Below, piece after piece: positions 41,273-63,921 of a stretch of DNA of 64,000 bases (position 1 is its first letter; each line of letters opens with the position of its first letter). The translations under genes and the position numbers were made by a program. This stretch comes from Nostoc sp. PCC 7107. GTDB lineage: Bacteria > Cyanobacteriota > Cyanobacteriia > Cyanobacteriales > Nostocaceae. The notes under the pieces were generated by a model. It saw only the letters and a program-made list of their open reading frames with translations, was not told where the DNA came from and did not search any database. The DNA is taken from contig NC_019676.1 in NCBI RefSeq assembly GCF_000316625.1, positions 3,800,501-3,864,500 of the forward strand. Direction: 5' to 3'.

Positions 41273-41303
41273 CACACTTCTCTCATTCGCAAGGAGAATA
41301 ATC

Positions 41304-42190: not shown

Positions 42191-42261
42191 AACAGCATTT
42201 TGCAGTGTTCGATTATTTAAACAACAAACGTAAAAACTATTTTTTGGTGTAGATATATTAA

Positions 42262-48683: not shown

Positions 48684-48700
48684 TTTAAATTTCCTGCTTT

Positions 48701-49318
48701 TCACATAGTTAGGTAAGATTGTTCGCGTTCGTCACTATTACTTAAATTGCGAATCTTTTTAGCTGGAATACCTGCCCATAATTCATTTGCTGGAACTGCT
48801 TTTGTGACAACACTCCCTGCACCAATGACTGAGTTATTTCCAATGAAGCAACCAGGAAGGACAATAGTACCTGCACCTATCCAAACATTCTCGCCAATAA
48901 TAATTCCCGTTTTGGTTTCGTCCCAAGATAAATTACCAGATGTTTGCTTGGTGGAGATTACATGATTAGATGCTATGAGCGATACTTGTTGAGCAATTTT
49001 GGTATCGCGCCCAATTAGAATTTCGCCCCCCGCAGCCCGAATATTAGCATGAGAACCAATAAACACCCGTTCTTGAATTATCAATTGACCTCTAGTTTTA
49101 CTGTCAGCAGACTTAGCTAACACTACAATTTCAGAAAAAGCACCAATGCAAACATCAGGTGCAATGAGTACCGCATTGATATCGTCAAATTGAAATACTG
49201 ATGGAAAAGAAATGTATACTCCTGGATTGTGATACATTACTTCCTGTTGCGCCCACCATTCTTTAATTAAATATTTAGGCGCTCTTAGTACAGATTTAAT
49301 TCTATGCCATAATTTCAT
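48701..49318 (-). CDS. hexapeptide-repeat acyltransferase
   Basis: 205 residues of the left-handed beta-helix type: QIIQERVFIGSHANIRAAGGEILIGRDTKIAQQVSLIASNH, GIIIGENVWIGAGTIVLPGCFIGNNSVIGAGSVVTKAVPANELWAGIPAKKIR. Presumably O-acetylates a sugar of the surface polymer. Its 3' end meets the methyltransferase start. Confidence 0.88.
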   Translation of the reverse strand: MKLWHRIKSVLRAPKYLIKEWWAQQEVMYHNPGVYISFPSVFQFDDINAVLIAPDVCIGAFSEIVVLAKSADSKTRGQLIIQERVFIGSHANIRAAGGEILIGRDTKIAQQVSLIASNHVISTKQTSGNLSWDETKTGIIIGENVWIGAGTIVLPGCFIGNNSVIGAGSVVTKAVPANELWAGIPAKKIRNLSNSDEREQSYLTM

Positions 49319-49331
49319 TTAGTTAATAAAA

Positions 49332-50492
49332 TTATTGATATTTAGGTATAGTTTTTAACACTTGCTCCATTACAGCCCAAGTTTCACTTGCACATTTGTC
49401 CCAAGAAAACTTAGCTGCTTGTTGCTGTGCTAACCAGGAACGGTAGTGTGCTTGGCTAGAGTTTGTCAACAGTGTAACTAATTTATCAGCCAGCGTCGCA
49501 GTATCATTGAGAGGAACTAAATAGCCTCCATCATTAACAACCTCTGGTAAAGAAGCTACATTAGAAGCTATCGCCACCGTTCCCGTCGCCATTGCTTCGC
49601 AAACTTGCAATCCGAAGCCTTCGTAAAGGGACATCTCTAGATAGATGTCTGCGTCACGATACAGAATAGGTACATCGTCATTGGGGACAAACCCAGTAAA
49701 GTAAAGTCTGTCTAAACAACCTAGTTCAGTAGCTATTTGCATTAAATTAGATTTTTGCCAGTCTGGACAACGCCCAGCAATAACTAAAGTGTGAGGAACT
49801 AGATCAGTAATTCTACCAAAAGCCTGCACTACTTGTTCGGGAACTTCACGGCGATCGCCTGTGGCATAAATCAAAATATATGGTTGTGGTATAGATTTAC
49901 ACCAATTTGATGAAGATTGTGTGGCTGCTTGGAAGAATCTATGATCTGCGGCTGCGTAAGTAACACTGACTTTTTCAGGACTAACTTGAAACTCTTTGAT
50001 TAAAGCAGTTGCTGTACTTTGAGAAACTGCGAGTAAATGAACTGCCCGACGGCAAGTATTTGGTAATACTATTTCAGTCAAACATTGACTTAAAAACTCA
50101 TACCAAGATTGATTGCAAAAATTTTTAGTCTGCTGACGATAAAGATGAGGTAATTCATGAATGGCCAGAATATATTGCACAGGTAAATAAGGGAGTGCAG
50201 TTTCTCCTAATATATGTAATAAATCTGGTTTAAGTTCTTTTAATAAGTTAGGTAGAGTGAAAAAATGCCAGAGATGCACTGAGTTTAACTGTAATGTATA
50301 TATTCTCCAGTTAAGACTGGTAATTTTAAGCAAGCTAACAGCTTCTTGACGTATTAATATAGTAAAACGAGCGATAGGGTTTAACTTTTGTAATGCTTGT
50401 AATAAAGATATAGCATAAACTGTTGCACCTTTACCATTTAAAACAATACAAGTAGCATCTATACATATATGAGAGTAATTGTTTAGCAGCAT
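49332..50492 (-). CDS. family 4 glycosyltransferase
   Basis: 386 residues. N-terminal KGATVYAISLLQALQKL, middle HELPHLYRQQ, C-terminal LVIAGRCPDWQ, DRLYFTGFVPNDDVPILYRDADIYLEMSLYEGFGLQVCEAMATGTVAIASNVASLPEVV. GT4 fold complete. Thirteen bases upstream of the acyltransferase gene. Confidence 0.9.
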   Translation of the reverse strand: MLLNNYSHICIDATCIVLNGKGATVYAISLLQALQKLNPIARFTILIRQEAVSLLKITSLNWRIYTLQLNSVHLWHFFTLPNLLKELKPDLLHILGETALPYLPVQYILAIHELPHLYRQQTKNFCNQSWYEFLSQCLTEIVLPNTCRRAVHLLAVSQSTATALIKEFQVSPEKVSVTYAAADHRFFQAATQSSSNWCKSIPQPYILIYATGDRREVPEQVVQAFGRITDLVPHTLVIAGRCPDWQKSNLMQIATELGCLDRLYFTGFVPNDDVPILYRDADIYLEMSLYEGFGLQVCEAMATGTVAIASNVASLPEVVNDGGYLVPLNDTATLADKLVTLLTNSSQAHYRSWLAQQQAAKFSWDKCASETWAVMEQVLKTIPKYQ

Positions 50493-50517
50493 GAATGGAT
50501 AATTTAATTTTGTACTT

Positions 50518-52050
50518 CTATATTTTCAATTTTCTATTTTGGCTACTTATCAACATACTTTTTATTTGATATTTATACCATAGAAATAATAAACCATAGT
50601 TTATTACCGTTACTATGCCTATACTAATTATCTGTATTTCAGGAAAATAAGATTGTAATTGAAAATTTATAAAACTAACTGTAAAACAGATGATCATAGG
50701 GATGAGTGTGTCTTGAAATAGCCAACGCAAATATTCATTAGGTAAAATATAAAAATGGGTAATTCGAGAAAATAAAAGATAGTATACGGTATTTAAGATA
50801 GCCCAAATTATGGCTGCACCTATTAACTCGAAACGCGGCAAAAGTAAAAAAAACATTGGCGTTGCAAATAATACACTAAAAGTACCAAATAAAGCATAGA
50901 TTTGTGGTTTACCAATTGCTAGTTGTAAGAGATATTGGACTTGAATCATACTACCCATCAGTATTCCAAATGATAATAATCGCAACGGCTCAGATGCTTG
51001 TGTTATAACTTCTGGTGAATGAGTCCAAATTTCTAGAACAGTGGGAGCAAAGAATATAAATACCGTTGCTATGGGTGTAATTAAAATAGTTATAAACAAG
51101 CTGCTTTTATGAAAAGCATATTTAAGTTTATCTATTTTACCTTGAGCTATAAGGATAGTTAAATGTGGTGAAATCGCCACCATGAATGGTTGAAAAATCG
51201 TAATTATACTGCTGGCTAAAGTGTAGGCGATCGCATAATAGCCAAATTTCTCTAAACTTACAAATTTTGACAATAATATTTTATCTAACTGAGTCAATAG
51301 TAACGAAACTAAGGTTGTCCAATTGACTGTCATCGCAAATTGCCAAATTTGCTGGATAATCTTTATCTCGAAACGAGCTTGAATATTTTTTATAGGTAAG
51401 TTCTGCCAAGCTAAAATTACAAATAGAAAAACTTCAATAACTGCTATTAGCCCTTGCCAAAAGAGAAAAAATACAATTGTACGTGATACCCATAATAAAA
51501 TTGCTATTCCTCCTAAATCTCGCAAAGTTATAATTAAACATTCAAAAATATTTAAACTCACCTGTTTTTCTAGACCAATCAAAGTGCTTTTATAAGGAGT
51601 AATAGCCCAACGAATAGCTATTGTGAATCCTAAAATGACAACAGCCCAATGTATAGTTTCAGAATTAAGTTTATCTGCTTTTAACCATTGAGTAGAAATT
51701 ATTGGAGTTAGTAGCACCAGGAGTATAATTAAAGCCACACTCATGCACCAATAAATAATTTCTGCGGTTTTTAATAAATTAGGAATAGTAGTTTTTGACT
51801 CTATAGTGGAGTTGCGTAAAGCTACTTCTCGATTGAGGGTTGTACCTAAACCTAAATCAAGTAAATTGATAAAAGAAGTTATGGTGTAAAATGCTCCGAT
51901 TAAACCGTAAGCTTCTATCCCTAAATAATATAAGTAAATTGGGACTAATAAAAAGCTGAGAAGATTAGTCCAGAGTTTGCTGATGTAGTTGGTAATTATA
52001 TTTAGCTTTAATTGTGATAAGGAAACATAATTTTTTATTAGTTTATTCAT
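50518..52050 (-). CDS. Wzx-type oligosaccharide flippase
   Basis: About 510 residues from the ATG at 52050, with 12-14 hydrophobic helices and the MATE/Wzx pattern (YISKLWTNLLSFLLVPIYLYYLGIEAYGLIGAFYTITSFINLLDLGLGTTLNREVA). Flips lipid-linked oligosaccharide across the inner membrane. First gene of the six-gene operon Wzx-GT-acyltransferase-methyltransferase-GT-GT; no Wzy polymerase or chain-length regulator is seen. Confidence 0.9.
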   Translation of the reverse strand: MNKLIKNYVSLSQLKLNIITNYISKLWTNLLSFLLVPIYLYYLGIEAYGLIGAFYTITSFINLLDLGLGTTLNREVALRNSTIESKTTIPNLLKTAEIIYWCMSVALIILLVLLTPIISTQWLKADKLNSETIHWAVVILGFTIAIRWAITPYKSTLIGLEKQVSLNIFECLIITLRDLGGIAILLWVSRTIVFFLFWQGLIAVIEVFLFVILAWQNLPIKNIQARFEIKIIQQIWQFAMTVNWTTLVSLLLTQLDKILLSKFVSLEKFGYYAIAYTLASSIITIFQPFMVAISPHLTILIAQGKIDKLKYAFHKSSLFITILITPIATVFIFFAPTVLEIWTHSPEVITQASEPLRLLSFGILMGSMIQVQYLLQLAIGKPQIYALFGTFSVLFATPMFFLLLPRFELIGAAIIWAILNTVYYLLFSRITHFYILPNEYLRWLFQDTLIPMIICFTVSFINFQLQSYFPEIQIISIGIVTVINYGLLFLWYKYQIKSMLISSQNRKLKI

Positions 52051-52242
52051 TTTGATATAATTTGTTACAAACAATTACACAAAAGTTGAGCTTGTGAGAA
52101 GGCATTACTCACAGGCGAATATTACGGCTATTGTATAAAGATTTATTGAAAATTCAACTAGATGTTTTGCGTAAATTCCCTGAAAATTTACGTAATATCA
52201 CTGAGGCAACAATTATTGATCTAAGGTGATGATAGCTGTCGT

Positions 52243-52737: not shown

Positions 52738-53469
52738 ATGATGAGTAATCAAATAATTGCAAACTCAGAATTGCATGTTTGCGCTAGTTTTTGGTGGCTA
52801 TGGCAGAAGTATCGACATTATCTTCATTCTTGCTGTCTCAAGTGGATGGGTGGAAACCCAACTGATGCTGAAGACGCGCTCAGTCGGGCAATGCTCAAGG
52901 CTTGGGAAAAGGAGCAAAAGTATGCCGGGAAAATTTCTAATTTTAAGGCTTGGCTGACAAAACTGACTCATAATCTCTGTATTGATATTCATCGAGAACG
53001 TAGTCGGGGTGAAAATCAAGTTGAAGATATAGAAGTATATACCTCTGGTGAGGAGCTAGGACTGATTTTTTGTGAGGATACACCAGAAAGTGCAATGGAT
53101 AGTAGTGAAGAAAGGACTGTAATTCTTCGTGCCGTTCATAATTTACCGCATCGGCTACGTGAGACGTTTATTCTCCACTTTTATGGAGAACTATCTTATC
53201 CAGAGATAGCCCAACAGCAAGATATTTCTTACGATAACGTCTGCAAGCGCATCTCCCAAGGACGGAAGATTTTGCGTGAGGAATTGAAAGGGTATTTTTT
53301 AGGCGAGGATGAAAATAATACAAATTTATCAGTTGCATCAACTTTGCCTGATAATACAGTGCATTCAGGAGTTAGAAAAAAAAGTCGCTCAAAAAATTCA
53401 GGAATTGGCGATGGTAATCGTCTTAAAAGTAGAAAGGCGAAAAAGAAAAAGAAATCTAATCTCGTCTAA
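52738..53469 (+). CDS. sigma-70 family (ECF-like) RNA polymerase sigma factor
   Basis: 243 residues. Region 2: NPTDAEDALSRAMLKAWEKEQKYAGKISNFKAWLTKLTHNLCIDIHRERSR. Region 4: NLPHRLRETFILHFYGELSYPEIAQQQDISYDNVCKRISQGRKILREEL. Region 3 is absent, as in ECF factors. An unusual basic tail follows (RKKSRSKNSG ... KAKKKKKSN). No anti-sigma gene is adjacent. First gene of the plus-strand peptide locus, so it may control it. Confidence 0.88.
   Translation: MMSNQIIANSELHVCASFWWLWQKYRHYLHSCCLKWMGGNPTDAEDALSRAMLKAWEKEQKYAGKISNFKAWLTKLTHNLCIDIHRERSRGENQVEDIEVYTSGEELGLIFCEDTPESAMDSSEERTVILRAVHNLPHRLRETFILHFYGELSYPEIAQQQDISYDNVCKRISQGRKILREELKGYFLGEDENNTNLSVASTLPDNTVHSGVRKKSRSKNSGIGDGNRLKSRKAKKKKKSNLV
53387..53432 (+). 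repeat. ~46-bp repeat, copy A (end of sigma gene)
   Basis: Sequence of the type CTCAAAAAATTCAGGAATTGGCGATGG...AATCGTCTTAAAAG inside the sigma gene's 3' coding end. Copies B, C and D at 54056-54103, 54749-54800 and 55054-55102 are non-coding and each precedes another small gene. Confidence 0.7.
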
Positions 53470-53512
53470 CCACTAAATTACAACTTGACGCAAGAATAGT
53501 TGGGGAAAACTT

Positions 53513-53758
53513 ATGTTTGTTCAGAAAGATATAGAAATGGGACAGTTCGATGTAAGTGTACAGATCGACATGAATCAAAATTTTCAACTTGTTCCAGAAA
53601 ATCCAGAGACATTCAATGTAAATATGCCATTTCTTTTATTTCGCACTCCCAATCGACCAAATATTCAGGTTGATAACCCGCAACAAAATATACTATATCG
53701 TGTAGAAAATAATAATGGAAATCTAGTTGTTGAGGAGTATCCGATAGAGAACAATTAA
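53513..53758 (+). CDS. small protein of unknown function
   Basis: 81 residues, no cysteines, beta-rich and Asn/Pro-rich (NMPFLLFRTPNRPNIQVDNPQQNILYRVENNNGNL). GGGGAAAA precedes the ATG. The last codons (EEYPIENN) and the bases after the stop align with the EENQSENEDNR leader region of the precursor at 54823, so the gene appears fused to or overwriting the start of a damaged precursor copy. No family recognised. Confidence 0.5.
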   Translation: MFVQKDIEMGQFDVSVQIDMNQNFQLVPENPETFNVNMPFLLFRTPNRPNIQVDNPQQNILYRVENNNGNLVVEEYPIENN

Positions 53759-54025
53759 GAGGATAATCGACTTCCTTATGAAGCGCCCTTGTTAGGCAAG
53801 CATGGCAAAGTAAATGATAAGTAAGTAGGCACAATTAAACCGAACTGTGTAAACTTATGTAAAGCGGCAGAAAGGCTTTAAATATAAGCTTTTAAGCGAT
53901 TTACATTTCTTAATCTAGTGGTATTTTTTAGCGCCCACCTACTTACTACTACCACTGTGCCGTTCAACGCAATTTTTGATAATCCCTTCGCACCAGTAAG
54001 TGATTTTAGTTTTGCTTTGCTATAG
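53759..54025 (+). pseudogene. RiPP-precursor-like gene, copy 1, broken by a MITE
   Basis: After the stop of the previous gene the frame reads EDNRLPYEAPLLGKHGKVND, then a 128-bp insertion, then TTTVPFNAIFDNPFAPVSDFSFALL and a stop at 54025. This is the leader-core order of the intact gene at 54823-55023, lacking its start and split in the middle. From the core on, DNA is close to identical to the second copy. Confidence 0.8.
53820..53947. mobile_element. 128-bp MITE inside precursor copy 1
   Basis: Ends AGTAAGTAGG and CCTACTTACT are perfect inverted repeats. The uninterrupted copy at 54823 reads GATACTACT at the same point, which locates the insertion between GATA and CTAC; a TA target duplication is likely. 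No coding capacity. Confidence 0.75.
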
Positions 54026-54055
54026 CGTGCATCAGGTAGTTAGGAAATAAGGTTC

Positions 54056-54103
54056 TAACTCGAAAAATTCAGAAATTGACGACTGAAATCGTCTTAAAGG
54101 TGG
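54056..54103 (+). repeat. ~46-bp repeat, copy B
   Basis: CTAACTCGAAAAATTCAGAA... then GACGA-ctgaaa-TCGTC, a small hairpin, and TTAAAGG. It is 78 bases identical with copy D at an offset of 998 bases, the sign of a tandem duplication. Precedes the small exported protein gene. Confidence 0.75.
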
Positions 54104-54223
54104 AGATACGAAAGGGAAAAATCAATCCGATTTCGTCTTGCCACAAAATTGCAAATTGACAAAAGAGGCGGTTTTAGTAGTAACTGTCAAAAACTAGAAG
54201 GAATAAAAAGGAGACTGAGGATC

Positions 54224-54541
54224 ATGTTAAAAAAACTTATGCTCAAGCTAATCACATTAATCATAACTATGGTGTTTATGGTATCCTACACCACTTCAGC
54301 ACTGGCAGTACCAATTACTATTAACGCACATGCCGAGGTTGGAATTAATCCAAATATAAACTTAACATGTGCAGCAAGTGAAGAGAAAGAAACTACAAGC
54401 CTTTGGTTTGTGGTAAGAGTTCAGGGGAAACCAGACCAGGTAATACAACAAATTAATGTGGGAGAATATCCGAAAAAAGTGGATACGGGTGCGTCCACAG
54501 TGATTTATAACAACGGTAATAATGCAGCGAAGTGTTGGTAG
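54224..54541 (+). CDS. small exported protein
   Basis: 105 residues from the ATG at 54224, with AAGGAG upstream; the frame opens earlier at 54149 without a site. Signal peptide LITLIITMVFMVSYTTSALA, cleaved near ALA-VP. Mature part ~75 residues with two cysteines (NLTCAASEE and the penultimate AAKCW), which could pair. No family recognised. Confidence 0.6.
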   Translation: MLKKLMLKLITLIITMVFMVSYTTSALAVPITINAHAEVGINPNINLTCAASEEKETTSLWFVVRVQGKPDQVIQQINVGEYPKKVDTGASTVIYNNGNNAAKCW

Positions 54542-54748
54542 AAACAGAGAAAGAGAAGAGGGAGTGAAGAATTGTTTAGTTTGAGAAATAAATGCGATCG
54601 CTTTCTCCTTAAGCTTAAGACGAAGAAGCGGGATCGCCCTTAGTTCAATTTGACTATGATAGTGCGATTAGCTTTGGTAACAGTGCTACTACGCTAATCG
54701 CCCTTTCTTATTAATTCAACTGGTGCATTTATTTGAAAAAAAGCACCT

Positions 54749-54800
54749 AACTCAAAAAATTCAGAAATTACACTTTGGAATCGTCTTTAAAGTGTATAAG
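54749..54800 (+). repeat. ~46-bp repeat, copy C
   Basis: CTAACTCAAAAAATTCAGAA, then a diverged centre and AATCGTCTTTAAAGTGTATAAG. About 25 bases before the ATG of the intact precursor, so it lies in its leader. Confidence 0.65.
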
Positions 54801-54822
54801 CTCAAAAACGGAGGAATTAATT

Positions 54823-55023
54823 ATGGCAGAAGAAACCAAAGATAATAGTGAATCTCAAGAAGAGAATCAATCTGAAAATGAAGATAATCGACTTCCTTAC
54901 GAAGCGCCAAAATTACGCAAGCATGGCAAAGTAAATGATACTACTACTCTCACTGTGCCGTTCAACGGAGTTTTTGATAATCCCTTCATAGCACAAAGTG
55001 ATTTAAGTTTTGCTTTGCTATAG
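54823..55023 (+). CDS. RiPP-like precursor peptide, copy 2, lasso-type leader
   Basis: 66 residues from the ATG at 54823 with GGAGG 8 bases before it. An acidic N-terminal extension (EETKDNSESQEENQSENED) precedes the leader motif YEAPKLRKHGKVNDTT, which fits the YxxPxLxxxG...T pattern read by the RRE (B1) of lasso clusters. The C-terminal ~27 residues (TVPFNGVFDNPF then IAQSDLSFALL) would be the core. It shares TVPxxxxFDxPF-like residues with copy 3. No lasso cyclase is visible, so the modification is unknown. Confidence 0.65.
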   Translation: MAEETKDNSESQEENQSENEDNRLPYEAPKLRKHGKVNDTTTLTVPFNGVFDNPFIAQSDLSFALL

Positions 55024-55053
55024 CGTGCATCAGGTAGTTAGGAAATAAGGTTC

Positions 55054-55102
55054 TAACTCGAAAAATTCAGAAATTGACGACTGAAATCGTCTTAAAAGTG
55101 TA
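55054..55102 (+). repeat. ~46-bp repeat, copy D
   Basis: CTAACTCGAAAAATTCAGAA followed by the GACGA/TCGTC hairpin and TTAAAAGTG. Thirty bases before the ATG of the 222-residue gene. Confidence 0.75.
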
Positions 55103-55134
55103 GACAACAAATAAAATCTCAAAAGGAGAAAATT

Positions 55135-55803
55135 ATGTCACTTACCACAACCCAATCCTACATGGAAAGTACTTTAACTTTACAAACAGCCTTAACAGCA
55201 TCAAAAAAAACAGTAGACATTCAAATTGCTCCAGATGATCTCAATACTCTAAAAGGCTCGGATTATAAACTTTGCTTTGCCAAGAAAGTTGGGGATAATG
55301 ATTACAATGTTGTCTGGCAGTCTTTTACGGCATATCTTAGCAACAATAGTTTTTTATGGACTCCCCAGTACCAACTTTTCGGTAGCAATATCTTCCAAAG
55401 TAATATCGAAGTAAAAGTATCAACCAACACCATAAAAATTGGTCTCGGAGAGCAAAGTATTCTGAGTAAAGCAGGATTGCTCCAACCACCATCAACCGGG
55501 GGAGAACCCACAGGATTCACTTTAAAAAACGAGTTTGGAAATATCCATCCAGGGGTTAATCAAATGTCGTTTAACACTATTACTGGGAAAGAAGTAAGCA
55601 CACCAATCTATGTAGCTCAAAACCCAGTAGTTATTGGAGATACACTCCTGACACCCGTTGAGAAAGTACTAGTATGGTTCGAGCAGAATATTGAAACCAG
55701 TACTATGTTTAGCAACTCGAGATCTAAATCAGTAGAAATCGATTTAACTCAAGATAATTCCGCTACTCGATTGTATAAAAATGGGTCTTGGATCACCCCA
55801 TAA
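55135..55803 (+). CDS. soluble beta-rich protein of unknown function
   Basis: 222 residues with an excellent ribosome site (AAAAGGAG). No signal peptide or membrane helix; one cysteine. Conserved-looking strands: YKLCFAKKVGDNDYNVVWQSF, FLWTPQYQLFGSN, IKIGLGEQSIL, PVEKVLVWFEQNIETSTMF. I do not recognise the family; the sequence reads like a secreted-type beta-sandwich lectin or toxin without an export signal. Follows the intact precursor gene by 111 bases on the same strand. Confidence 0.6.
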   Translation: MSLTTTQSYMESTLTLQTALTASKKTVDIQIAPDDLNTLKGSDYKLCFAKKVGDNDYNVVWQSFTAYLSNNSFLWTPQYQLFGSNIFQSNIEVKVSTNTIKIGLGEQSILSKAGLLQPPSTGGEPTGFTLKNEFGNIHPGVNQMSFNTITGKEVSTPIYVAQNPVVIGDTLLTPVEKVLVWFEQNIETSTMFSNSRSKSVEIDLTQDNSATRLYKNGSWITP

Positions 55804-56228
55804 TCGGGACAATAGGATTACCTTAGTTTAATTTTTCAGGGTGTGTTACTTCGGTAGCTCATCCTTTCCTAATTTTAATCTCTAGTGCGATTTCAATAGT
55901 ATAATTAACTGCTCAAACAATTGTCTAAAGTGCGATCGCGCTTGTGGGATTAGGAGTTTCCATGTATCACGCTCGTTTTAAATTAGGTAGTGGTGCGATC
56001 GCGCTTATGGGATTAGCAGTGGTTCCCGTCCTCGCTGTCTTGATTATCAAGCGATCGCGGTAATGGGGTAATATTAATTGCGATGCCCTTGACAATCACT
56101 TCGTGCGATAGCGAAGCGCTGACTTGTCAGTTCGCATTTGTGGGGTTAGCAGTTTGCATACATCGCTGATTTTTTACTAGATAGCAAATAGTGCGATGCG
56201 CTTCCACTCAACCTACGCAAAATATAAA
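55804..56228. other. HIP1-rich intergenic region
   Basis: Between convergent genes. Several GCGATCGC/GCGATCGCG sites and partial repeats of TGGGATTAG; no gene, no clear terminator. Confidence 0.5.
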
Positions 56229-57107
56229 CTAGATATTTTCCCGATTTAACCAAACTTGTAAATCAGCCATACTGGTAAAATCAAGCAATGCTTCACTAAG
56301 ATTTTCTAACTGTTCCAAAGATAAAATTTCAACCTGTTGACGAATATCCTGTGGTAATTCCCCCACCCGTCGATTTAGTTGACGGAGAATGAGCGAGAAA
56401 GCCTCAACTTCTCGTCCCTGTTCTCGTCCTCGTTCTTCTCCTTCCTTTATTCCCTCTTCCTTAATTTCCCGATAAACCCTTGTTTCCTTAAGTGTAATTC
56501 CTAACATTTCCTCGACCTCCCGTTGACTTTTATCATCAAACTTGTACACCATTATCGTTGTGATTAACTCTATTATGGCGCGATTTCCGACTTGAGTTTC
56601 TTGTTTGCGATTCCTCGCCAACAAATACCTTGCTTCCTGTGTTGCTTGCTCATCCTCAAGGGTAGTTAATACCATCAGTGCTACCCACACAGGTAACTCA
56701 CGAATATCACCCAATTCATCCAAATATATGCGATTTACCTGTGGGCTGTTAAGTTGACTCAGATAAGGACGAATATCACTTTGTTCAAGATTACGGGATG
56801 GGTAAATTATTACTACCTGCAAATCACTAAATCTGTCTCGGTTACGATAGAAATATAACCAAGATTCTGCAAATACCCTTTCATAGAGTCTTTCATCCTT
56901 TTGAAACTGTACCTCACAGAAATAAACAACCCCAGGATTTTCGCTTTCTGGTGGTAAAAATACCCCATCAATCTCAAATTTTGGTTCTTTAACAGCTACC
57001 GAATCAAACCTGTATTTATCTGCATTTTCTGGTGGATTTGTCAATAGCTCAAACAGTAAAGTTGGGGATTGTTGAAATAGTTTATAAAAAATTGAATCTC
57101 GACGCAT
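56229..57107 (-). CDS. Rpn family nuclease (DUF2887)
   Basis: About 292 residues from the ATG at 57107. RRDSIFYKLFQQSPTLLFELL, FDSVAVKEPKFEIDGVFLPP and VVYFCEVQFQKDERLYERVFAESWLYFYRNR form the PD-(D/E)XK core of the Rpn/PDDEXK_2 family, with Asp of EIDGVF and E-x-Q of CEVQF. Acidic, charged C-terminus (EEGIKEGEERGREQGREVEAF). Homologues promote recombination and are very common in cyanobacterial accessory DNA. Confidence 0.88.
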   Translation of the reverse strand: MRRDSIFYKLFQQSPTLLFELLTNPPENADKYRFDSVAVKEPKFEIDGVFLPPESENPGVVYFCEVQFQKDERLYERVFAESWLYFYRNRDRFSDLQVVIIYPSRNLEQSDIRPYLSQLNSPQVNRIYLDELGDIRELPVWVALMVLTTLEDEQATQEARYLLARNRKQETQVGNRAIIELITTIMVYKFDDKSQREVEEMLGITLKETRVYREIKEEGIKEGEERGREQGREVEAFSLILRQLNRRVGELPQDIRQQVEILSLEQLENLSEALLDFTSMADLQVWLNRENI

Positions 57108-57197
57108 GAAAATTTTTACTTGAAAATTGCACCTGCTCAATTTTAAGCTTTAAGTGCTTCCAGCCAAGCCTAAAAATTAGCCATATCCTAGAATCAA

Positions 57198-58184
57198 TCA
57201 TCTCTGCAATCCCACTACATCCGACAAAATCACATCACACACGTTAGATAACCCAGGTAAACTATCCTCTCGATAAAGTTGTCGTATTGGTACTATATTT
57301 GCCAAACGTGCTAATAAAGCAAATTCACGCGATCGCATATCTCGCTCTAACTGCAATGATTGAGGATATCTGTGAGTAATTAGGTGCATTAAACCAATTT
57401 GAGGAATAATTGCTTCTATGCTGGGTGCAGTTAACGACTGCTGACGCTCTCCCAAAACATAAATCGCAGCTAGAGGTAAGGGTTGAGGATGGAAACGCCA
57501 CGCTGATAGATGATTTTGATTTAACTCCACAAAATGCTTATCAGTTTGGCTAAATACCCGCGATAACTCTGCTTCTGAACCGTAAAGTTCATTTACCGCT
57601 GATTTCCACAACCGCAGACGAGGATAACCAGGTTGAACCAGGAAACTATTGTCACAGTCAGCAAGAACGGCAATGTCATCAGCTAAAATCGGATAGCCTT
57701 GTTTTGCTAAGGCTGCGGCGGTAGTTGACTTACCTGCTCCTTTTGCACCTATAATTGCGATCGCGCAATCATCTACTTTAATAACGCTGCTGTGGAGACA
57801 GATTTTTCCTTGTAACCGTAAAGCAGTCCCAATAATGCAACCAATGAGAATCGCGGTTACTTCAGCCAGGGGTAAATTTACCCAGTTAATCCAGATTTGT
57901 TTACCATTGGGAGCAATTTCTACATCTAATTTTTCCTCAATACCACAAAGAGATAGACAATAGTAAATACCATCGGCTTTTTGTTGTGTGTACCAATCAG
58001 AGCGATGCTGTTTTTGTTCTATTTTTTCTTCATGAGAATGTGGGGATAATTCACCTTCTACTAAATTAATCTCTACATCTATCGTTGTAGTGGTTGAGGT
58101 GGGAATTAAGATTGGTAGCGGTCGGTTTGCGCGTAAGGTTAGACCATAGACCTGGTAGTATACTGCCTCAGTACATAGGTACAT
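57198..58184 (-). CDS. HprK-like serine kinase
   Basis: 328 residues. P-loop GAKGAGKS (146-153), LADDIAVL (167-174) where HPr kinases carry acidic metal ligands, and YPRLRLWKSAVNELYG. The N-terminal ~110 residues form a beta-rich domain (VYGLTLRANRPLPIL). This domain set is that of PqqD/HprK-type kinases found in lasso and other RiPP clusters, where they phosphorylate a core serine in paeninodin-type systems. On the opposite strand to the peptide genes. Confidence 0.85.
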   Translation of the reverse strand: MYLCTEAVYYQVYGLTLRANRPLPILIPTSTTTTIDVEINLVEGELSPHSHEEKIEQKQHRSDWYTQQKADGIYYCLSLCGIEEKLDVEIAPNGKQIWINWVNLPLAEVTAILIGCIIGTALRLQGKICLHSSVIKVDDCAIAIIGAKGAGKSTTAAALAKQGYPILADDIAVLADCDNSFLVQPGYPRLRLWKSAVNELYGSEAELSRVFSQTDKHFVELNQNHLSAWRFHPQPLPLAAIYVLGERQQSLTAPSIEAIIPQIGLMHLITHRYPQSLQLERDMRSREFALLARLANIVPIRQLYREDSLPGLSNVCDVILSDVVGLQR

Positions 58185-58724
58185 GTATATATTTCCTGAG
58201 TTTAATTCGGATGTACTAAATTTAGCGATTTAGCTTTGTTGTTTCTAACATCAAGTGCTTTTTGCGATCTTAAATGTAACTGATTGTATACAATTATCTT
58301 CTGTTTGGTAAATTTTGACTTATTGATTCATTTCAATTTTTAACAAATAAGCAAATATACTCTTACATAATCAATATATATTTACTTAGGTTCAGTAGAT
58401 ATACTGAAGCATCAAGCAAGTTGATAGCTTAAGCTAATCAATTGGAGGGGAATAAGTTTATTCCTTTTTTGACACTTACCCCAATCGCCAAAATCAATTT
58501 AGACAAATGCAACTGATTACGCTTAAAATCACCAAGATTTTAAGTGTAGAAAAATTTTTAAAGAATCAAAATTAATAACTTGGGTGATTGAAATAGAGGT
58601 TGAAATTTACTATCTTCGTTGATTTTTCTATACAAATCCCAAAATAGCGCTCTCGAAGATATCAGTAGGCGAGGAGGATGCTCGCCTCAGTGGCTGTATA
58701 AATCAAGGATAAAGGAGTATAAAT
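58185..58724. other. long divergent promoter region before the FAD oxidase
   Basis: About 540 bases with no gene. Holds the shared box at 58410-58425 and, just before the ribosome site, a hairpin AGGCGAG/CTCGCCT (58667-58687, loop 7) that sits in the presumed leader. Confidence 0.55.
58410..58425 (+). promoter_or_regulatory. shared 16-bp box, copy 2 (before the FAD oxidase gene)
   Basis: CATCAAGCAAGTTGAT, identical to 52561-52576. It lies about 300 bases before the FAD oxidase ATG and ~225 bases before the HprK start on the other strand. Confidence 0.5.
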
Positions 58725-60323
58725 ATGACAGACAACAACATTCTAGATGTGGCAGTTGTAGGAGGCGGAATATCAGGAGTATATTCTGCTTGGAGGCTGC
58801 TAACCGATGGGGGCAAAAAATCGGTTACGCTTTATGAAGCTGATAAGCATATTGGAGGTCGCCTTCTTTCTGTTAAGCCACCAGGTATCGATAATATGGT
58901 GGCTGAATTAGGAGGGATGCGTATTCTACCTGAATGTATTCAACCCTTAATTAACACACTCATCTCCAAATTAAATTTCCTAGCAAATAATTCAGACTCG
59001 GACATTACTCACATCGATTTGTACGATTTCCCGGTGAACGACTCACCTGCATCTGATAATATTGTTTTTACACGAGGAACGTCATTCCGTTGGTCAGATA
59101 TAAAAAACCCGCCTGATAACATTCCTTACAAATTGCCTGAAACAGAAAAGGGTAAATCACTCGGCGAAATTATCCTAGAGGCTATCAAGATAATTCTCAA
59201 CGACCCAGAAATTGATAAATGCTCTTCAGAGGAAGTTCGCACAAAGGTTCAAACCGCGACCTATGGTTCTCAAAATCTCCCTCTTCATCAGCAAGGATTT
59301 TGGGATATCTTAACGCAAGTTATAAGTTATGAAGCTTATAAATTTGAGCAGGATGCTGGCGGGTATTCCACAACTCTAAGTAATTGGAATGCTGCGGATG
59401 CTATTGCTTGGTTTCTGGCAGATTTCAGTCCTAAAGCAACTTACCGTGGTTTTGCCCAAGGTTATCGACAAGTTGTAGTGAACATGGCTAAGTTGTTTAC
59501 CAATGCTGGTGGTAACATTGTCTGCGACCAAAAATTAGCTAATTTCGACTGGGACGGTAATGTTTTTACGCTCAAATTTGCCAATGGCGATACTGTCAAA
59601 GCTAAAGCATTAATCCTTGCTATGCCCCGACGTTCGCTGGAACTTATCTCATGCGGAAATAAATATTTGAGCAAGGATGAAACTAGCAAGCTTATTAAGA
59701 GTGTAACACCGCAGCCAGCTTTCAAGATATTTTCTACTTATTCGACACCGTGGTGGCAAAAGTTAAATTTGAGCTTAGGACGGAGTGTTACCGATCTGCC
59801 CATTCGTCAAACTTATTATTGGGCTAATAGTCAGGGAAAACCAATTGAGGATGGACCTGCAATGCTTATGGCTAGTTATGACGATGGGAACAACCCTGAT
59901 TTCTGGAGTGGCTACCGCGATTGGGAAGGCGTAAATTTTAAATCGATGGGTTTAAGAACAAATGATTTGAAATGGAAGGACAAGACACCCGAATGGAGTG
60001 ATTACGAACCAAAGCAGGAACAAATGAAAGCTGAAATGACGCGGCAATTAGCTGAAATTCATGGAGTTTGTAAAGACAGCATTGAGCCAAACAGTGTTTG
60101 TTTTAAGAACTGGGCTGAAGATCCGTTTGGTGGTGGTTGGAACTTCTGGAATATTGGAGTTGAAAGTCAGAAGGTCATGAAGGAGATTATTAAGCCAGAT
60201 TTAAACGTACCACTTTATATTTGTGGAGATGCTTATTCCAATTGGCAAGGATGGGTGGAAGGTGCCTTAGAAACTGCAAATATGGTATTAGCGCTACCTG
60301 AGTTTAACGTGAAACCATTATAA
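58725..60323 (+). CDS. FAD-dependent amine oxidase
   Basis: 532 residues. N-terminal dinucleotide motif VAVVGGGISGVYSAWRLL, then LYEADKHIGGRLLSV and VAELGGMRI, and a C-terminal FAD motif YICGDAYSNWQGWVEGALETANMVL: the flavin amine oxidase / L-amino-acid oxidase fold. It would oxidise an amine or amino acid to imine and keto acid with H2O2. No signal peptide. AAAGGAG precedes the ATG. Followed after 54 bases by a ThDP enzyme, so a two-step path from amino acid to keto acid to decarboxylated or ligated product is plausible. Confidence 0.88.
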   Translation: MTDNNILDVAVVGGGISGVYSAWRLLTDGGKKSVTLYEADKHIGGRLLSVKPPGIDNMVAELGGMRILPECIQPLINTLISKLNFLANNSDSDITHIDLYDFPVNDSPASDNIVFTRGTSFRWSDIKNPPDNIPYKLPETEKGKSLGEIILEAIKIILNDPEIDKCSSEEVRTKVQTATYGSQNLPLHQQGFWDILTQVISYEAYKFEQDAGGYSTTLSNWNAADAIAWFLADFSPKATYRGFAQGYRQVVVNMAKLFTNAGGNIVCDQKLANFDWDGNVFTLKFANGDTVKAKALILAMPRRSLELISCGNKYLSKDETSKLIKSVTPQPAFKIFSTYSTPWWQKLNLSLGRSVTDLPIRQTYYWANSQGKPIEDGPAMLMASYDDGNNPDFWSGYRDWEGVNFKSMGLRTNDLKWKDKTPEWSDYEPKQEQMKAEMTRQLAEIHGVCKDSIEPNSVCFKNWAEDPFGGGWNFWNIGVESQKVMKEIIKPDLNVPLYICGDAYSNWQGWVEGALETANMVLALPEFNVKPL

Positions 60324-60377
60324 AAGATTTTCAATAACTGCATTTCTAGCTATTAAATACATAACACGACAAATAAG

Positions 60378-62291
60378 ATGACACAAAAGCAACAGCGTTG
60401 GACTCGCGACTACGTTTTTGATGTTCTACGCTCACTTGGCATTCACTATATCTTCGGTGTTCCAGGTACGAACGAGATTCCGATCATTGATGGTACATCC
60501 TATCCAGAAAATGAAGTCCAATACATTGAATGTTTACACGAGAACATTGCTATTGGTGCAGCAATGGGTTCTGCACGTATGACTGGCAAACCAGGGGTGT
60601 TGCTTGTTCATGTCACACCTGGTATTGCTCATAGTATCGGTAATCTCTTTAACGCATGGCGATCGCATGTCCCATTGGTCATCCTTTGTTGTCAGCAGCA
60701 AAATGAGCTAGTGACACAAGAGCCGCTCCTCGCTTCAAACCTTGTCGATTTGGCGCGGCAGTACACGAAATGGGCGCATGAGATACGGACACCGGAAGAA
60801 ATTCCCCTTGTTCTACAGCGTGCTTTTAAAGAGGCAATGGCACCACCAAATGGGCCAGTGTTTGTCGCTGTCCCTTGGGAGTTCATGATGCGTAGTATCA
60901 AAGCCGACGACCGTATCCAAGGTATCACGCAAATTTCGCCCCATTTCACTGGTGATCCATTGGCAATTGAGCAAGCGGCATCCATGCTTGCACAAGCGAA
61001 AAACCCAATTATCATCGCTGGTGATGCGGTTGGCTACTCAAATGCGTGGTCAGAACTGCAAGAACTTGCCGACCTGCTAGGCGCTCCAGTTCTGCTCCAA
61101 ACGTTCAGCAGCATGGCGAACTTCCCGAACGATGACTTCCACTGGCAAGGAGAACTCCCTGGTAGCCAAGCGGGGGTACAGGAAGTGTTTAAAGAGCATG
61201 ATGTCGCATTTCTCTGTGGTTTTGGAGTTCAAGCTCAAGTTACAGTTTTCAAACATTCTGATGGGCCTCTGATTCCTTCCACCGTTAAGCAGATTTATCT
61301 CACAAACAACACTTGGGATATTGGCAAAAACTATTATGGGGAGGCAGCAATTTTTGGTGATATCAAAGCAACACTCCCTCTCATCAACAACCTAGTTCGT
61401 CAAAATCGACCCGCCGAGGCAACAAGTAGGAACAAAAAACTGCTGTGCCTCGACACAGAGCGACGTAAACACTGGCAGCAATATCTGGAACAAGCATTGT
61501 TACAAGATGAAATCTGGGCTGTCGTCATTGCTCAGGCGCTTCGAGAGGCAATTCAGGAGCAAAAACTGGAGAAGAAATTTGTCTATGTGCATGAAGCTGT
61601 TTCCGATCCTGCGCCATTTCAGTATCTTCTCCCACTCGATACCCAAAGTTCGGCACCCATTAGCTATTACTGTGTAGCTGGCGGCTCACTGGGTTGGTCA
61701 ATGCCTGGTTCACTGGGAATTAAACTCGAAAGCCAAGGCTGGCAGGGTATTGAGACGCGCTTAGTTGTTAATGTTATCGGCGATGGCTCATCACTGTTTT
61801 ATCCCCAAACTTGGTGGACTGCGGCACATCGACAACTCGGCGTACTCTATATTATTACCAACAATCAAGAATATCATACACTCCAACTTGGGCTACAGCA
61901 GGTTATTGATGCGTATGGCTCGTCCGAGGGCTATGGCTGGAAGCCAAAGACTAACGACCCCGAATATCTGCGAATTGAGAAACCCCAACTCGACTTTGTT
62001 GCGCTTGCAAAAGCATTCGGTGGTCAAGAAGGTGAGATTGTGAAAAGTCCCCAAGATGTTGGAATTGCTGTGAGGCGCGGCATTGAGTATGTTTTATCGA
62101 CCCAACGGTCGTATATCCTCGATATGCGGACTGCTCAAGCCACGCCCACACCGCCATCCACCGATATAGAAACTTTCCAAGTCTCCGCTCGTTATCTGAC
62201 GCAACCGCCACTTAACTTTTTCCACTGCCACACAGCAAATGAAAAGACAGGTATTTTTGGCTCAGTAGCGAACGTTGCGATTATTCCTTAA
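60378..62291 (+). CDS. ThDP-dependent enzyme (benzoylformate decarboxylase/acetolactate synthase-like)
   Basis: 637 residues. N-terminal pyrimidine domain with IFGVPGTNEIP and the catalytic Glu55 in CLHENIAIGAA; central domain NPIIIAGDAVGYSNAW; C-terminal diphosphate site GDGSSLFYPQTWWTAAHRQLGVLYIITNN (~468-497). Closest in pattern to 2-keto-acid decarboxylases of the BFD group. Longer than usual by a C-terminal tail (FQVSARYLTQPPLNFFHCHTANEK). G+C is visibly higher than in its neighbours, a sign of separate origin. Confidence 0.88.
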   Translation: MTQKQQRWTRDYVFDVLRSLGIHYIFGVPGTNEIPIIDGTSYPENEVQYIECLHENIAIGAAMGSARMTGKPGVLLVHVTPGIAHSIGNLFNAWRSHVPLVILCCQQQNELVTQEPLLASNLVDLARQYTKWAHEIRTPEEIPLVLQRAFKEAMAPPNGPVFVAVPWEFMMRSIKADDRIQGITQISPHFTGDPLAIEQAASMLAQAKNPIIIAGDAVGYSNAWSELQELADLLGAPVLLQTFSSMANFPNDDFHWQGELPGSQAGVQEVFKEHDVAFLCGFGVQAQVTVFKHSDGPLIPSTVKQIYLTNNTWDIGKNYYGEAAIFGDIKATLPLINNLVRQNRPAEATSRNKKLLCLDTERRKHWQQYLEQALLQDEIWAVVIAQALREAIQEQKLEKKFVYVHEAVSDPAPFQYLLPLDTQSSAPISYYCVAGGSLGWSMPGSLGIKLESQGWQGIETRLVVNVIGDGSSLFYPQTWWTAAHRQLGVLYIITNNQEYHTLQLGLQQVIDAYGSSEGYGWKPKTNDPEYLRIEKPQLDFVALAKAFGGQEGEIVKSPQDVGIAVRRGIEYVLSTQRSYILDMRTAQATPTPPSTDIETFQVSARYLTQPPLNFFHCHTANEKTGIFGSVANVAIIP

Positions 62292-62404
62292 ACATTTTGA
62301 AGAAGTGGAGAGCGATGGCGTAAAAAGACGAATACGCCAATCGCACTTTACTTATCACGAAATCATTTACGACGGAATTATTTTATCAAATGGAGAAATT
62401 AACT

Positions 62405-62596
62405 ATGGCAGAATTACCAAAAAATATGAGTGAATCTCATGAAGAGAATCAACCTGAGAAGGAAGATAATCGTCTCCCTTATGAAAAGCCTAAATTACGC
62501 AAGCACGGCAAAGTCAATGATACTACTTTGTCAGTTCCTACACCAGGCACCAAGTTCGATACTCCTTTTGTTGGAATTCCTAGAGCTATATCTTAA
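62405..62596 (+). CDS. RiPP-like precursor peptide, copy 3, lasso-type leader
   Basis: 63 residues from the ATG at 62405, GGAG upstream. The extension MAELPKNMSESHEENQPEKED and the leader YEKPKLRKHGKVNDTT match copy 2 nearly residue for residue; the core is different (LSVPTPGTKFDTPFVGIPRAIS) but keeps VP and FDxPF. Leader conserved and core diverged is the expected pattern of RiPP precursors. Lies between the ThDP enzyme and the GH18 gene. Confidence 0.68.
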   Translation: MAELPKNMSESHEENQPEKEDNRLPYEKPKLRKHGKVNDTTLSVPTPGTKFDTPFVGIPRAIS

Positions 62597-62667
62597 CTAT
62601 AAGGTAGTAACTGGATTTTGTTTCGCTAAAAATTTGATTCAATCGTGAACTTAAAGAGGCTATCAAA

Positions 62668-63921
62668 ATGTACAAGACAATACAGACGGTTTTTGTCGGA
62701 GATGGGAATTATAACAACCTAATGAATAGCATAAAGGGTGGTCAACGACCATTTAAATATATGGACTACCTCTACGTCGCATTTGCAGATCTTAAACCTA
62801 ATTCTAACCCTCCACAAATCTACTTCAAATCTGAATACGAACAGAATGTTAGGGAGATTATTGCCGAAGCTAAAAAGCAAAATCCAAGCCTAATAGTGTT
62901 TGCACAAGTTAATTGGGCGAGTACTCTTGCCCCACTTGACACTGAAGCCAAAATTGAGGCATTCGCAAAGTCTATTCCGCCATTTTTGAAGCAGTATGGA
63001 CTTGTCGGCATAGATTTTGATTGGGAACAAGTACCCTTCGATATAAACCTAGCCTCTTATCTATTTACTCAAGTAAAAACACAGATTGGTAGTGAGGCAT
63101 ATCTTTCTATTTCAGCTGACAAGACAACATCTCTTAAGCCTTCTGTTGTAAACCAGTATGTAGACATAGTTAATGTGCAATCATACCAGCGATTATGGCT
63201 TGTTGATGAGTTCATTGACTTTGGAATTGACAAAAACAAAATCTACATTGGAATAGCAAGTGAAAATGATGACCCGAATGCCTTTTACCCTTCAGGAGGA
63301 GGTGTCTCAGATTATATTAATAAGTGCGTTGACACAGGCACAGCTGGTTTATATTTATGGCGTATAGATAATGATGATACGGATCATGCAATAAATGTAC
63401 CTCGGTATACAATAACTAAACAAATTTGGCAATTCACCAAAGGTACAATGGCAACCGAAATCGGTGGTGGCGTTTTTGAAGACACTAACATGAGACGTGA
63501 CGCTAAAGGTAATCCCCAGGCAGTACCACCAATCACGGAGATGATAGTTCGCTATGGAAATGTTGTAAACGCCATTCAGACTATTAACGGTGATTTGAAG
63601 TTGCCTCAGCATGGTGGTTATTCGGGTATTGCAGCACCTACCATCAAGCTGGACGAGGGCGACAACATTATCGAGGTTTCTGGCTATACAGGGACGTGGT
63701 TCGGATGGAATTGTGTGCTTCAACTGATGCTGACCACCAAGAATGGGAAGACCTATGGTCCTTACGGAAGCATGGCAGATGCGTCACAAAAAATACCTTT
63801 TAGCTTTAAGGCACTTACTGGGCAATCGATTGTGGCGTTCAAAGGTACTCTTATCAGTATACCACTGAAAGACGCTCCCGAAACCACTGTTATTGAGAGC
63901 CTGTCGGTATCTTTTGCTTAA
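62668..63921 (+). CDS. GH18 chitinase-like protein with jacalin-type lectin domain
   Basis: 417 residues. GH18 barrel (residues 1-265) with GLVGIDFDWEQ, the DxxDxDxE-type active site with the catalytic Glu, and YLWRIDND near the last strand. C-terminal domain (~285-417): MIVRYGNVVNAIQTING... HGGYSGIAAPTIKLDEGDNIIEVSGYTG... YGPYG, a jacalin-related lectin. No signal peptide is visible. Possibly acts on chitin or peptidoglycan-like glycans of other organisms; how it would leave the cell is not shown. AAGAGG before the ATG. Confidence 0.85.
   Translation: MYKTIQTVFVGDGNYNNLMNSIKGGQRPFKYMDYLYVAFADLKPNSNPPQIYFKSEYEQNVREIIAEAKKQNPSLIVFAQVNWASTLAPLDTEAKIEAFAKSIPPFLKQYGLVGIDFDWEQVPFDINLASYLFTQVKTQIGSEAYLSISADKTTSLKPSVVNQYVDIVNVQSYQRLWLVDEFIDFGIDKNKIYIGIASENDDPNAFYPSGGGVSDYINKCVDTGTAGLYLWRIDNDDTDHAINVPRYTITKQIWQFTKGTMATEIGGGVFEDTNMRRDAKGNPQAVPPITEMIVRYGNVVNAIQTINGDLKLPQHGGYSGIAAPTIKLDEGDNIIEVSGYTGTWFGWNCVLQLMLTTKNGKTYGPYGSMADASQKIPFSFKALTGQSIVAFKGTLISIPLKDAPETTVIESLSVSFA

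Follow-up and report, generated by a model that had tools for sequence, protein, structure and literature searches.

Characterized lasso peptides have rings of 7 to 9 residues, a size that the literature gives as a hallmark of the class (PMC9266682, PMC10368454), and a canonical rule places the leader cut, with YxxPxL spanning positions -17 to -12 and Thr occupying -2 (PMC10368454). For paeninodin (PadeK) and pseudomycoidin (PsmK/PsmN), PMC9266682 describes a kinase with a His-Lys-Asp-Asp motif, a C-terminal Ser and a nucleotidyltransferase-like partner. We analyzed 64,000 nucleotides of Nostoc sp. PCC 7107 (NC_019676.1, positions 3,800,501 to 3,864,500), called the window here, and all coordinates are given on its scale. 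From sequence comparisons, we read the locus, with a probability of roughly 0.8, as a partly dismantled lasso peptide cluster whose cyclase belongs to a separate cyanobacterial branch and which sits on a probable fdxN-type element.

The original prediction had proposed a RiPP-type locus without an AsnB-like cyclase or a PqqD-like B1 protein. The RiPP assignment held, as did the RRE-type leader, the kinase and the PF14907 partner on which it drew. The apparent lack of a cyclase and B1 is an artifact of where the window stops, 84 bp short of the cyclase gene, with B1 as the next gene after it, so neither was seen and the locus was not recognized as a lasso cluster. Extending the search to the right on the contig, as had been suggested, recovered both genes but no B2 protease on the element.

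64085 to 65941 (G000:C1:3864585-3866441), minus strand: cyclase C, AsnB-like (PF00733, 85.8 bits)
66005 to 66313 (G000:C1:3866505-3866813), minus strand: B1, PqqD-like (PF05402, 57.7 bits, cut-off 23.4)

Both proteins fall below the cut-offs of the lasso-specific families (cyclase against NF033535, 336.8 bits versus 525; B1 against NF033536, 53.4 bits versus 80). The SGGxDS motif is kept in all 32 cyclases of the clade to which C belongs.

The small precursor-like genes with a common leader and different cores, already noted in the original prediction, are real and of the lasso type.

54823 to 55023, plus strand: A1, lasso-type precursor, core LTVPFNGVFDNPF..., with Asp at core position 10 under the canonical cut
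62405 to 62596, plus strand: A2, lasso-type precursor, core SVPTPGTKFDTPFVGIPRAIS, with a C-terminal Ser
53759 to 54025, plus strand: A3, broken third precursor, with the leader part at 53759 to 53819 and the core part from about 53944

A1 and A2 are 73% identical over 57 residues and score 16.5 and 17.5 bits against the NCBIfam lasso_leader_L3 profile, slightly below its cut-off of 19. Asp10 is the sole acidic residue of the A2 core; in A1 the next acidic residue is at position 18, and there is no C-terminal Ser. The YxxPxL leader of A1 and A2 would be bound by B1 through its PqqD-like RRE, and the cyclase would close the ring onto Asp10. A3, which had been overlooked, is interrupted by an insert of about 124 bp with 10-bp inverted ends.

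The other lasso enzymes encoded here are a kinase and a nucleotidyltransferase-like protein. The gene list assigned to positions 52738 to 63921 agreed with the open reading frames at the coordinates given, except that the PF14907 gene lies outside that range.

57198 to 58184, minus strand: HprK-like kinase, lasso tailoring type (PF07475, 30.4 bits, below the cut-off of 33.3)
42262 to 43491, plus strand: PF14907 nucleotidyltransferase-like protein, intact open reading frame (PF14907, E = 2.8e-52)

Kinase residues H131, K152, D169 and D170 are invariant in the 14 kinases aligned and, by our own mapping, would correspond to the published His-Lys-Asp-Asp motif. The kinase would phosphorylate the C-terminal Ser of A2, a residue that A1 lacks, and the PF14907 protein, PsmN-like by analogy, would put a sugar or nucleotide onto the Ser phosphate, as in paeninodin and pseudomycoidin. 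That these two proteins are lasso partners was borne out by 16 related lasso neighborhoods, 5 to 37 kb long, from 15 genomes. By tblastn at 1e-5, they contained the kinase in 13 (the match in G054 being a 44-residue piece), B1 in 11, an ABC transporter in 11 (those in G174 and G190 being generic ATPase-domain matches of 28 to 29%), PF14907 in 10 and B2 in 8, with the B2 and B1 counted for G123a and G206 belonging to a second cluster nearby. Absences in G140, G153 and G054 mean little because their contigs are short.

The cluster looks as though it is carried on an fdxN-type excision element, as the original prediction had held for an excision element. Elements of this type are marked by an fdxN gene that the insert splits, an XisF-like recombinase close to one end and excision in heterocysts. 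By eye, we take positions 41226 to 41600 to be the 5' part of an fdxN-like gene and L009:13308-13361, before a nifS-like gene, to be its 17-codon tail, with what are presumably two serine-recombinase-like genes beside it. A search of the element ends for a direct repeat of at least 8 bp found none, and the cyclase query found no relative among viral contigs.

The absence of a transglutaminase-like B2 leader peptidase, the one missing lasso gene that had been called correctly, was confirmed on the element by PF13471 and tblastn searches, apart from a probable remnant.

42172 to 42249, plus strand: probable remnant of the B2 C terminus, 26 codons, in frame with the downstream PF14907 gene and closed off by stops

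This short stretch matched residues 137 to 184 of the B2-PF14907 fusion of the G077 cluster, weakly and in a permissive tblastn search (E = 8e-4; 0.07 with the G054 query), and it is probably what is left of B2. It lies where the fusion predicts, since in two relatives B2 and PF14907 share frames of 582 and 595 amino acids with PF14907 as the C-terminal part; the N-terminal half of such a fusion would have gone. By eye, a transposase-like remnant adjoins it. The PF13471 profile has a single match in the genome, inside a complete second lasso cluster at 5.25 Mb, 1.4 Mb away. With its own B2 lost, the pathway would depend on this distant B2 for the leader cut or would be silent.

A silent pathway raises the possibility that the locus is a relic whose lasso genes have made no product since B2 and the exporter were lost. 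B2 is cut down to its probable remnant in a genome with only one other copy, A3 is broken by the insert, and a search for an ABC transporter gene of the lasso kind on the element found none. Against this, C, B1, the kinase, PF14907, A1 and A2 are all open frames. The dN/dS values against the G077 cluster are 0.12 to 0.14 for C and 0.23 to 0.28 for the kinase, although such values are compatible with a recent loss of function. A remote B2 is also not peculiar to this genome: in G207, G174 and G190, the genome's B2 is likewise remote from C, and the 20 kb around it contain no cyclase. Counted by hand, 15 of 34 genomes have a B2 on the contig of the clade cyclase and no more than 17 kb from it, two of them (G123 and G206) in a second cluster; the other 19, our genome included, have none within that distance, but most of them are fragmented assemblies. 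Pseudomycoidin, moreover, reportedly forms without a leader and leader peptidase. We give the relic explanation somewhat less than even odds. It is compatible with the reading of a partly dismantled lasso cluster, which allows for silence.

The position of the ring acceptor sets this locus and its clade apart. The clade is separated from the comparison cyclases by a branch with SH-aLRT support of 100 in a quick, unrooted cyclase tree. By score, 37 matches belonged to it; the second loci of G163 and G179, together with G257 and G279, were not included, and the partial cyclase of L016 (G054) was left out of the tree. We counted 32 clade precursors from 29 of the 32 tree cyclases (none was found at L101, L112 or L117) and 25 comparison precursors, which came from 20 of the 28 cyclases on the other side of the branch, after dropping nine pattern hits that were short or misfitting or, at L086 and L094, cut by the locus end. 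Under the canonical cut, neither A1 nor A2 has Asp or Glu at core positions 7 to 9. An acidic residue at 10 or 11 with none at 7 to 9 occurred in 20 of the 32 clade precursors versus 3 of the 25 comparison precursors (L027, L092 and L095), a difference with a Fisher P value of 1.2e-4 that ignores relatedness and counts near-identical relatives separately. On the cyclase tree, a three-state acceptor label needs at least 12 changes, a figure without a shuffled control.

This pattern would follow from rings of 10 to 11 residues or from a shift of the leader cut. We advance only tentatively that this cyanobacterial clade of 32 tree members closes 10- and 11-residue macrolactam rings, with B2 often far from the cyclase. 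Rules for calling lasso precursors have the 7-to-9 ring built in, and our search of open-licence literature, limited to titles and the starts of abstracts, returned no report of a lasso ring of at least 10 residues. The other explanation is that the leader is removed 1 or 2 residues past the canonical place and rings remain at 7 to 9, which would bring an acidic residue into that range in 29 of 32 clade precursors at +1 and 32 of 32 at +2, versus 12 of 32 unshifted. The residues seen experimentally at position 1 (G, A, S, C and N) would begin the core about as often at +2 (21/32) as unshifted (23/32), with 14/32 at +1, and the comparison group also fits slightly better at +1 (24/25) than unshifted (22/25). 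However, the leader itself speaks for the canonical place: YxxPxL at -17 to -12 with Thr at -2 fits A1, A2 and all 32 clade precursors, in a search whose pattern was this same leader but allowed T, I or V at -2. G, A, S, T, N or C follows the canonical cut in 30 of 32, versus 17 one residue later and 23 two residues later. A +2 cut would also leave Pro at the N terminus in 5 of 32 and lower the comparison group to 18 of 25, and the single B2 of our genome would need to cut both precursor sets. A shifted cut seems possible to us but somewhat doubtful, and the data, which fit both explanations, do not decide between it and the larger rings. If the clade uses 10- and 11-residue rings, the limits on threading geometry and the scoring of genome-mining tools need to change; a shifted cut would instead make the whole clade an exception to the Thr(-2) rule.

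A1 lies in a group of genes that share a promoter-like box.

52738 to 53469, plus strand: ECF sigma factor (PF04542/PF08281, TIGR02937), its last codons overlapping box 1
53393 to 53424, plus strand: box 1, before orf81, exact match to AAAATTCAGRAATT-N9-AATCGTCTT
53513 to 53758, plus strand: orf81, no Pfam or NCBIfam match
54064 to 54095, plus strand: box 2, before orf107, exact match
54218 to 54541, plus strand: orf107, small protein with a signal-peptide-like N terminus (by eye), no family match
54756 to 54787, plus strand: box 3, 35 bp upstream of the A1 start codon, exact match
55062 to 55093, plus strand: box 4, before orf222, exact match
55135 to 55803, plus strand: orf222, with homologues in G105 and G153 (58 to 63% identity)

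These four are the only exact matches in the 6.33-Mb genome, which has two further copies elsewhere with three mismatches. Exact copies also stand upstream of the orf222 homologues in G105 and G153, and G333 and G322 hold a one-mismatch copy and weaker ones close to their homologues of the sigma gene. No box precedes the oxidase, A2, GH18, kinase or cyclase genes in the window and the next 5.5 kb, where the best other score was 12.7 versus 36 to 39 at the boxes. The scoring matrix came from five sites, among them three of the four locus sequences. The sole functional link of the lasso genes to the sigma module would be the place of A1 behind a putative sigma-regulon box, which the ECF factor may recognize.

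Three further genes, which we read as separate from the lasso module, lie around A2.

58725 to 60323, plus strand: L-amino-acid-oxidase-like FAD enzyme (PF01593; best solved relative 8jhe, E = 2.3e-141)
60378 to 62291, plus strand: ThDP enzyme, benzoylformate-decarboxylase-like by family profiles and solved relatives
62668 to 63921, plus strand: GH18-jacalin protein (PF00704, PF01419)

From the first two, the original prediction had expected an oxidized or decarboxylated peptide. Their genes do share the strand of the precursors and fall between A1 and A2, with A2 starting 113 bp past the ThDP gene. However, tblastn searches at 1e-5 found the oxidase, ThDP, GH18-jacalin and ECF sigma genes in none of the 16 related lasso neighborhoods and lasso genes in none of 14 related oxidase neighborhoods; the association with lasso genes elsewhere thus fails for the oxidase and ThDP genes and holds for the kinase. 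The oxidase query found one locus among genome contigs, in Calothrix sp. NIES-4105, where the closest oxidase (93%) stands beside ThDP and NRPS-like genes, and the best solved relatives of the two enzymes are named L-amino-acid oxidases and benzoylformate decarboxylases. Tailoring of the peptide by this pair, ruled out as a candidate on those 16 and 14 neighborhoods, seems highly improbable to us. On this neighborhood evidence, we conclude that the two enzymes, like the GH18-jacalin protein and the ECF sigma factor, are neighbors and do not tailor the peptide. The only GH18-jacalin match among the 14 oxidase neighborhoods covers just the jacalin-like domain.

Neighborhood-based mining would miss features of this kind: a B2 that is often remote, B2-PF14907 fusions, and a precursor behind an ECF-sigma box on a presumed heterocyst excision element.

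Compared with known systems, the locus shares with paeninodin and pseudomycoidin the kinase motif, the C-terminal Ser (on A2) and the nucleotidyltransferase-like partner. It differs from them in its acceptor position, in A1 without Ser, and in a B2 that is fused to PF14907 in two relatives and lost here. The nearest relative, the G077 cluster (L034/L035), has a cyclase 79% identical to ours, a kinase 71%, a PF14907 protein 57% and a B1 52%, and shares the leader LPYExPxLRKHGKVND; unlike our locus, it retains the ABC transporter and the B2-PF14907 fusion. Two precursors are present, and none of the sigma, oxidase, ThDP and GH18-jacalin genes has a match there. The adjacent oxidase (45 to 93%) and ThDP (61 to 78%) genes recur in Calothrix NIES-4105, G181 and G433, but there the ThDP gene comes before the oxidase and lasso genes are absent nearby. 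The second cluster of our own genome, of the NF033528/NF033535 type, likewise has a YxxPxL...T leader, an AsnB-like cyclase, a PqqD-like B1, an HprK-like kinase and several precursors. Its cyclase is only 27.5% identical to that of the element, across the fully supported branch, and its three precursors carry an acidic residue at core position 9, whereas the element has Asp10; it is complete, while the element cluster is without B2 and the ABC transporter.

The locus is a lasso-type cluster, since genes for an AsnB-like cyclase and a PqqD-like RRE protein (B1) stand just outside the window. In this 6.33-Mb genome, a single contig with the window at 3800501-3864500, the first gene to the right of the window lies on the minus strand and encodes an AsnB-like protein of 618 aa. 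Its top NCBIfam hit, the model for cyanobacterial lasso cyclases, scores 336.8 bits versus a cutoff of 525, and a 102-aa PqqD protein comes next. The original prediction had seen neither cyclase nor B1, which holds for the window itself but not for the chromosome. Searching rightward, as it had proposed, recovered both genes but no leader peptidase (B2) on the element by tblastn; an ABC transporter of the lasso-cluster kind was likewise not found there by tblastn. The genes it listed were confirmed, positions included, and the two small proteins, A1 (54823-55023) and A2 (62405-62596), do have an acidic extension and leader in common and different cores. A third precursor copy, A3 (53759-54025), duplicates a segment of A1 (170 bp at 91% and 61 bp at 89%) and is interrupted by an insert of some 124 bp bounded by 10-bp inverted ends.

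The cyclase is one of 32 (561 to 662 aa as cut out) that form a clade set off by a branch whose SH-aLRT is 100. Among the 28 cyclases across that branch, our comparison group, is that of a second, complete lasso cluster of the same genome, at 5.25 Mb.

L011:2087-9018: the second lasso cluster, complete, encoding a cyclase, B1, B2, a kinase, an ABC transporter and three precursors that have their acidic residue at core position 9

Clade cyclases have near-invariant residues of their own, among them Gly371 and Pro508-Trp509, where the comparison group has mostly Asp and Gln-Lys, respectively.

The locus sits on an apparent fdxN-type element. A ferredoxin-like frame (41226-41600), following a nifB-like gene, runs up to the start of the element, and on the stretch past the window (L009) lies a frame of 17 codons that we take to be the end of fdxN.

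L009:13308-13361, plus strand: 17-codon frame, some 41 kb further along, ahead of a nifS-like gene
L009:9045-10649, plus strand: serine-recombinase-like gene (by eye), nifS-like end of the element, beside the 17-codon frame
L009:11709-13253, minus strand: serine-recombinase-like gene (by eye), same end

The fdxN gene (named by eye) seems to be split between the window and L009. No direct repeat of at least 8 bp was found between the two element ends. XisF elements in fdxN are described in passages of PMC4874684, the main text of which has no occurrence of "lasso," "cargo," or "secondary metabolite." On the same element, glycosyltransferase-like, flippase-like, Wzc-like, and polymerase-like proteins (45597-52074 and L008:14924 to L009:5262) flank the lasso genes and together resemble an exopolysaccharide cluster (all by eye).

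The single PF13471 (B2) match of the genome is located in the second lasso cluster. In two relatives, G077 and G054, the B2 domain and the PF14907 protein form one open frame, of 582 aa and 595 aa.

L035:7359-9104, plus strand: B2-PF14907 open frame of G077
L036:6339-8123, minus strand: B2-PF14907 open frame of G054

The PF14907 protein in the window has its own ATG start. Just upstream, in the same frame and closed by stops, are 26 codons similar to the end of the fusion B2 domain; a permissive search matched them at an E of 8e-4, or 0.07 when G054 was the query. A transposase-like remnant (by eye) precedes them. B2 appears to have been lost, probably along with the ABC gene, which in G077 precedes the B2-PF14907 frame. 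A distant B2 is not unusual for this cyclase clade: B2 was present somewhere in all 34 genomes checked, our own included, and in 15 of them it lies no more than 17 kb from the clade cyclase. On the megabase contigs of G207, G174, and G190, contig coordinates put it at distances of 3.7, 2.4, and 1.5 Mb, solitary or accompanied by B1 only. Five fetched stretches (L118, L120, L122, L128, and L129) hold B2 genes with no cyclase match within the stretch and a clade cyclase elsewhere in the genome; B2 stands alone in each except L120, where B1 is present.

The oxidase and thiamine diphosphate (ThDP) enzyme had been proposed to tailor the peptide, which the neighborhoods argue against. The 16 stretches around related cyclases (15 genomes, 5 to 37 kb, tblastn at 1e-5) had the kinase in 13, B1 and the ABC gene in 11 each, PF14907 in 10, and B2 in 8, and none carried the oxidase, ThDP, GH18-jacalin, sigma, or orf222 gene. 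No lasso gene occurred in 14 related-oxidase neighborhoods, which had ThDP in 3 and sigma in 3. In Calothrix sp. NIES-4105, a 93% identical oxidase adjoins a ThDP gene; NRPS-like genes and another amine-oxidase-like protein, this one ending in a jacalin-like part, occur at the same locus (named by eye). Neighborhood and homology comparisons gave no supporting evidence for action of either enzyme on the peptide. The proteins nearest in sequence to the oxidase and the ThDP enzyme are L-amino-acid oxidases and benzoylformate decarboxylase, respectively, and together the two would convert an amino acid via a keto acid to an aldehyde or acyloin.

Four perfect copies of the box AAAATTCAGRAATT-N9-AATCGTCTT exist genome-wide, and all fall inside one 1.7-kb span of this locus, preceding orf81 (53513-53758), orf107 (54218-54541), A1, and orf222 (55135-55803); A2 does not stand behind it. 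Two of the four are copies made by the A1/A3 duplication and are therefore not independent. Elsewhere in the genome there are two matches with three mismatches, and no further box of comparable score turned up when the window plus 5.5 kb beyond it was scanned with a matrix. Exact copies lie upstream of orf222 homologues in G105 and G153, in G333 a copy with a single mismatch follows a sigma gene of 72% identity, and in G322 weaker copies lie near one of 60% identity; none was found in the G077 loci. Because of this recurrence and its form of conserved blocks with a variable spacer, we read the box as a putative promoter used by the locus's own sigma factor (52738-53469). In G105, tandem orf222 homologues with signal-peptide-like N termini (by eye) stand behind the same promoter-like box (L134:9050-10626). 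In G322, the sigma gene lies beside FAD amine-oxidase-like proteins and a LodA-like protein (by eye; L065:10975-18044), some of them with box-like sites upstream.

Beyond gene content, we infer the following steps. B1 would bind the precursor leader, and the kinase, which retains His131, Lys152, Asp169, and Asp170, would phosphorylate A2 at its C-terminal Ser. The PF14907 protein would then modify the phosphate, by analogy with PsmN. B2 of the second cluster would cut after the residue following Thr(-2), and the cyclase would activate Asp10 and close the ring. A1, without a C-terminal Ser, would not be phosphorylated. Of the clade precursors that lack this Ser, many have a Lys/Arg-Ser/Thr pair near the end, which may be their kinase site. 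The lasso locus may be a relic not yet decayed; the cyclase dN/dS against G077 (0.12 to 0.14) shows past use, not present use.

In reported lasso precursors, the leader carries YxxPxL at -17 to -12 and Thr at -2, with the acceptor at core positions 7 to 9 (passages of PMC10368454 and PMC9266682; PMC13352647, which gives characterized rings of 7, 8, and 9 aa). Thr is at -2 in 32/32 clade precursors. With the canonical cut, an acidic residue falls at 7 to 9 in only 12 of these, and the other 20 have one solely at 10 or 11; the corresponding counts among the 25 comparison precursors are 22 and 3. A1 and A2 both have Asp10, the sole acidic residue of the A2 core; among the 16 clade cores with a single acidic residue, it is at 10 or 11 in 11 and at 9 in 5. 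The clade may combine a fixed leader cut with a variable, longer ring of 10 to 11 residues, or, with about equal likelihood, the cut may be shifted by two residues with rings kept at 7 to 9. The shift would bring an acidic residue to 7 to 9 in 32/32 precursors, but it would leave an N-terminal Pro in five cores, and position-1 residues seen in experiments (passages of PMC12670498 name G, C, S, and A as examples, and metanodin extends these to N) would start 21/32 cores versus 23/32 unshifted. Cores of the f29 genomes, such as SVAIEGN-IDGAG and SFAVEGIAGDGSG, align N-terminally with a one-residue difference inside the ring (by eye), which speaks for the fixed cut and variable ring. The locus is of a known kind in an unusual state, and its oddity is the acceptor position across the cyclase clade.
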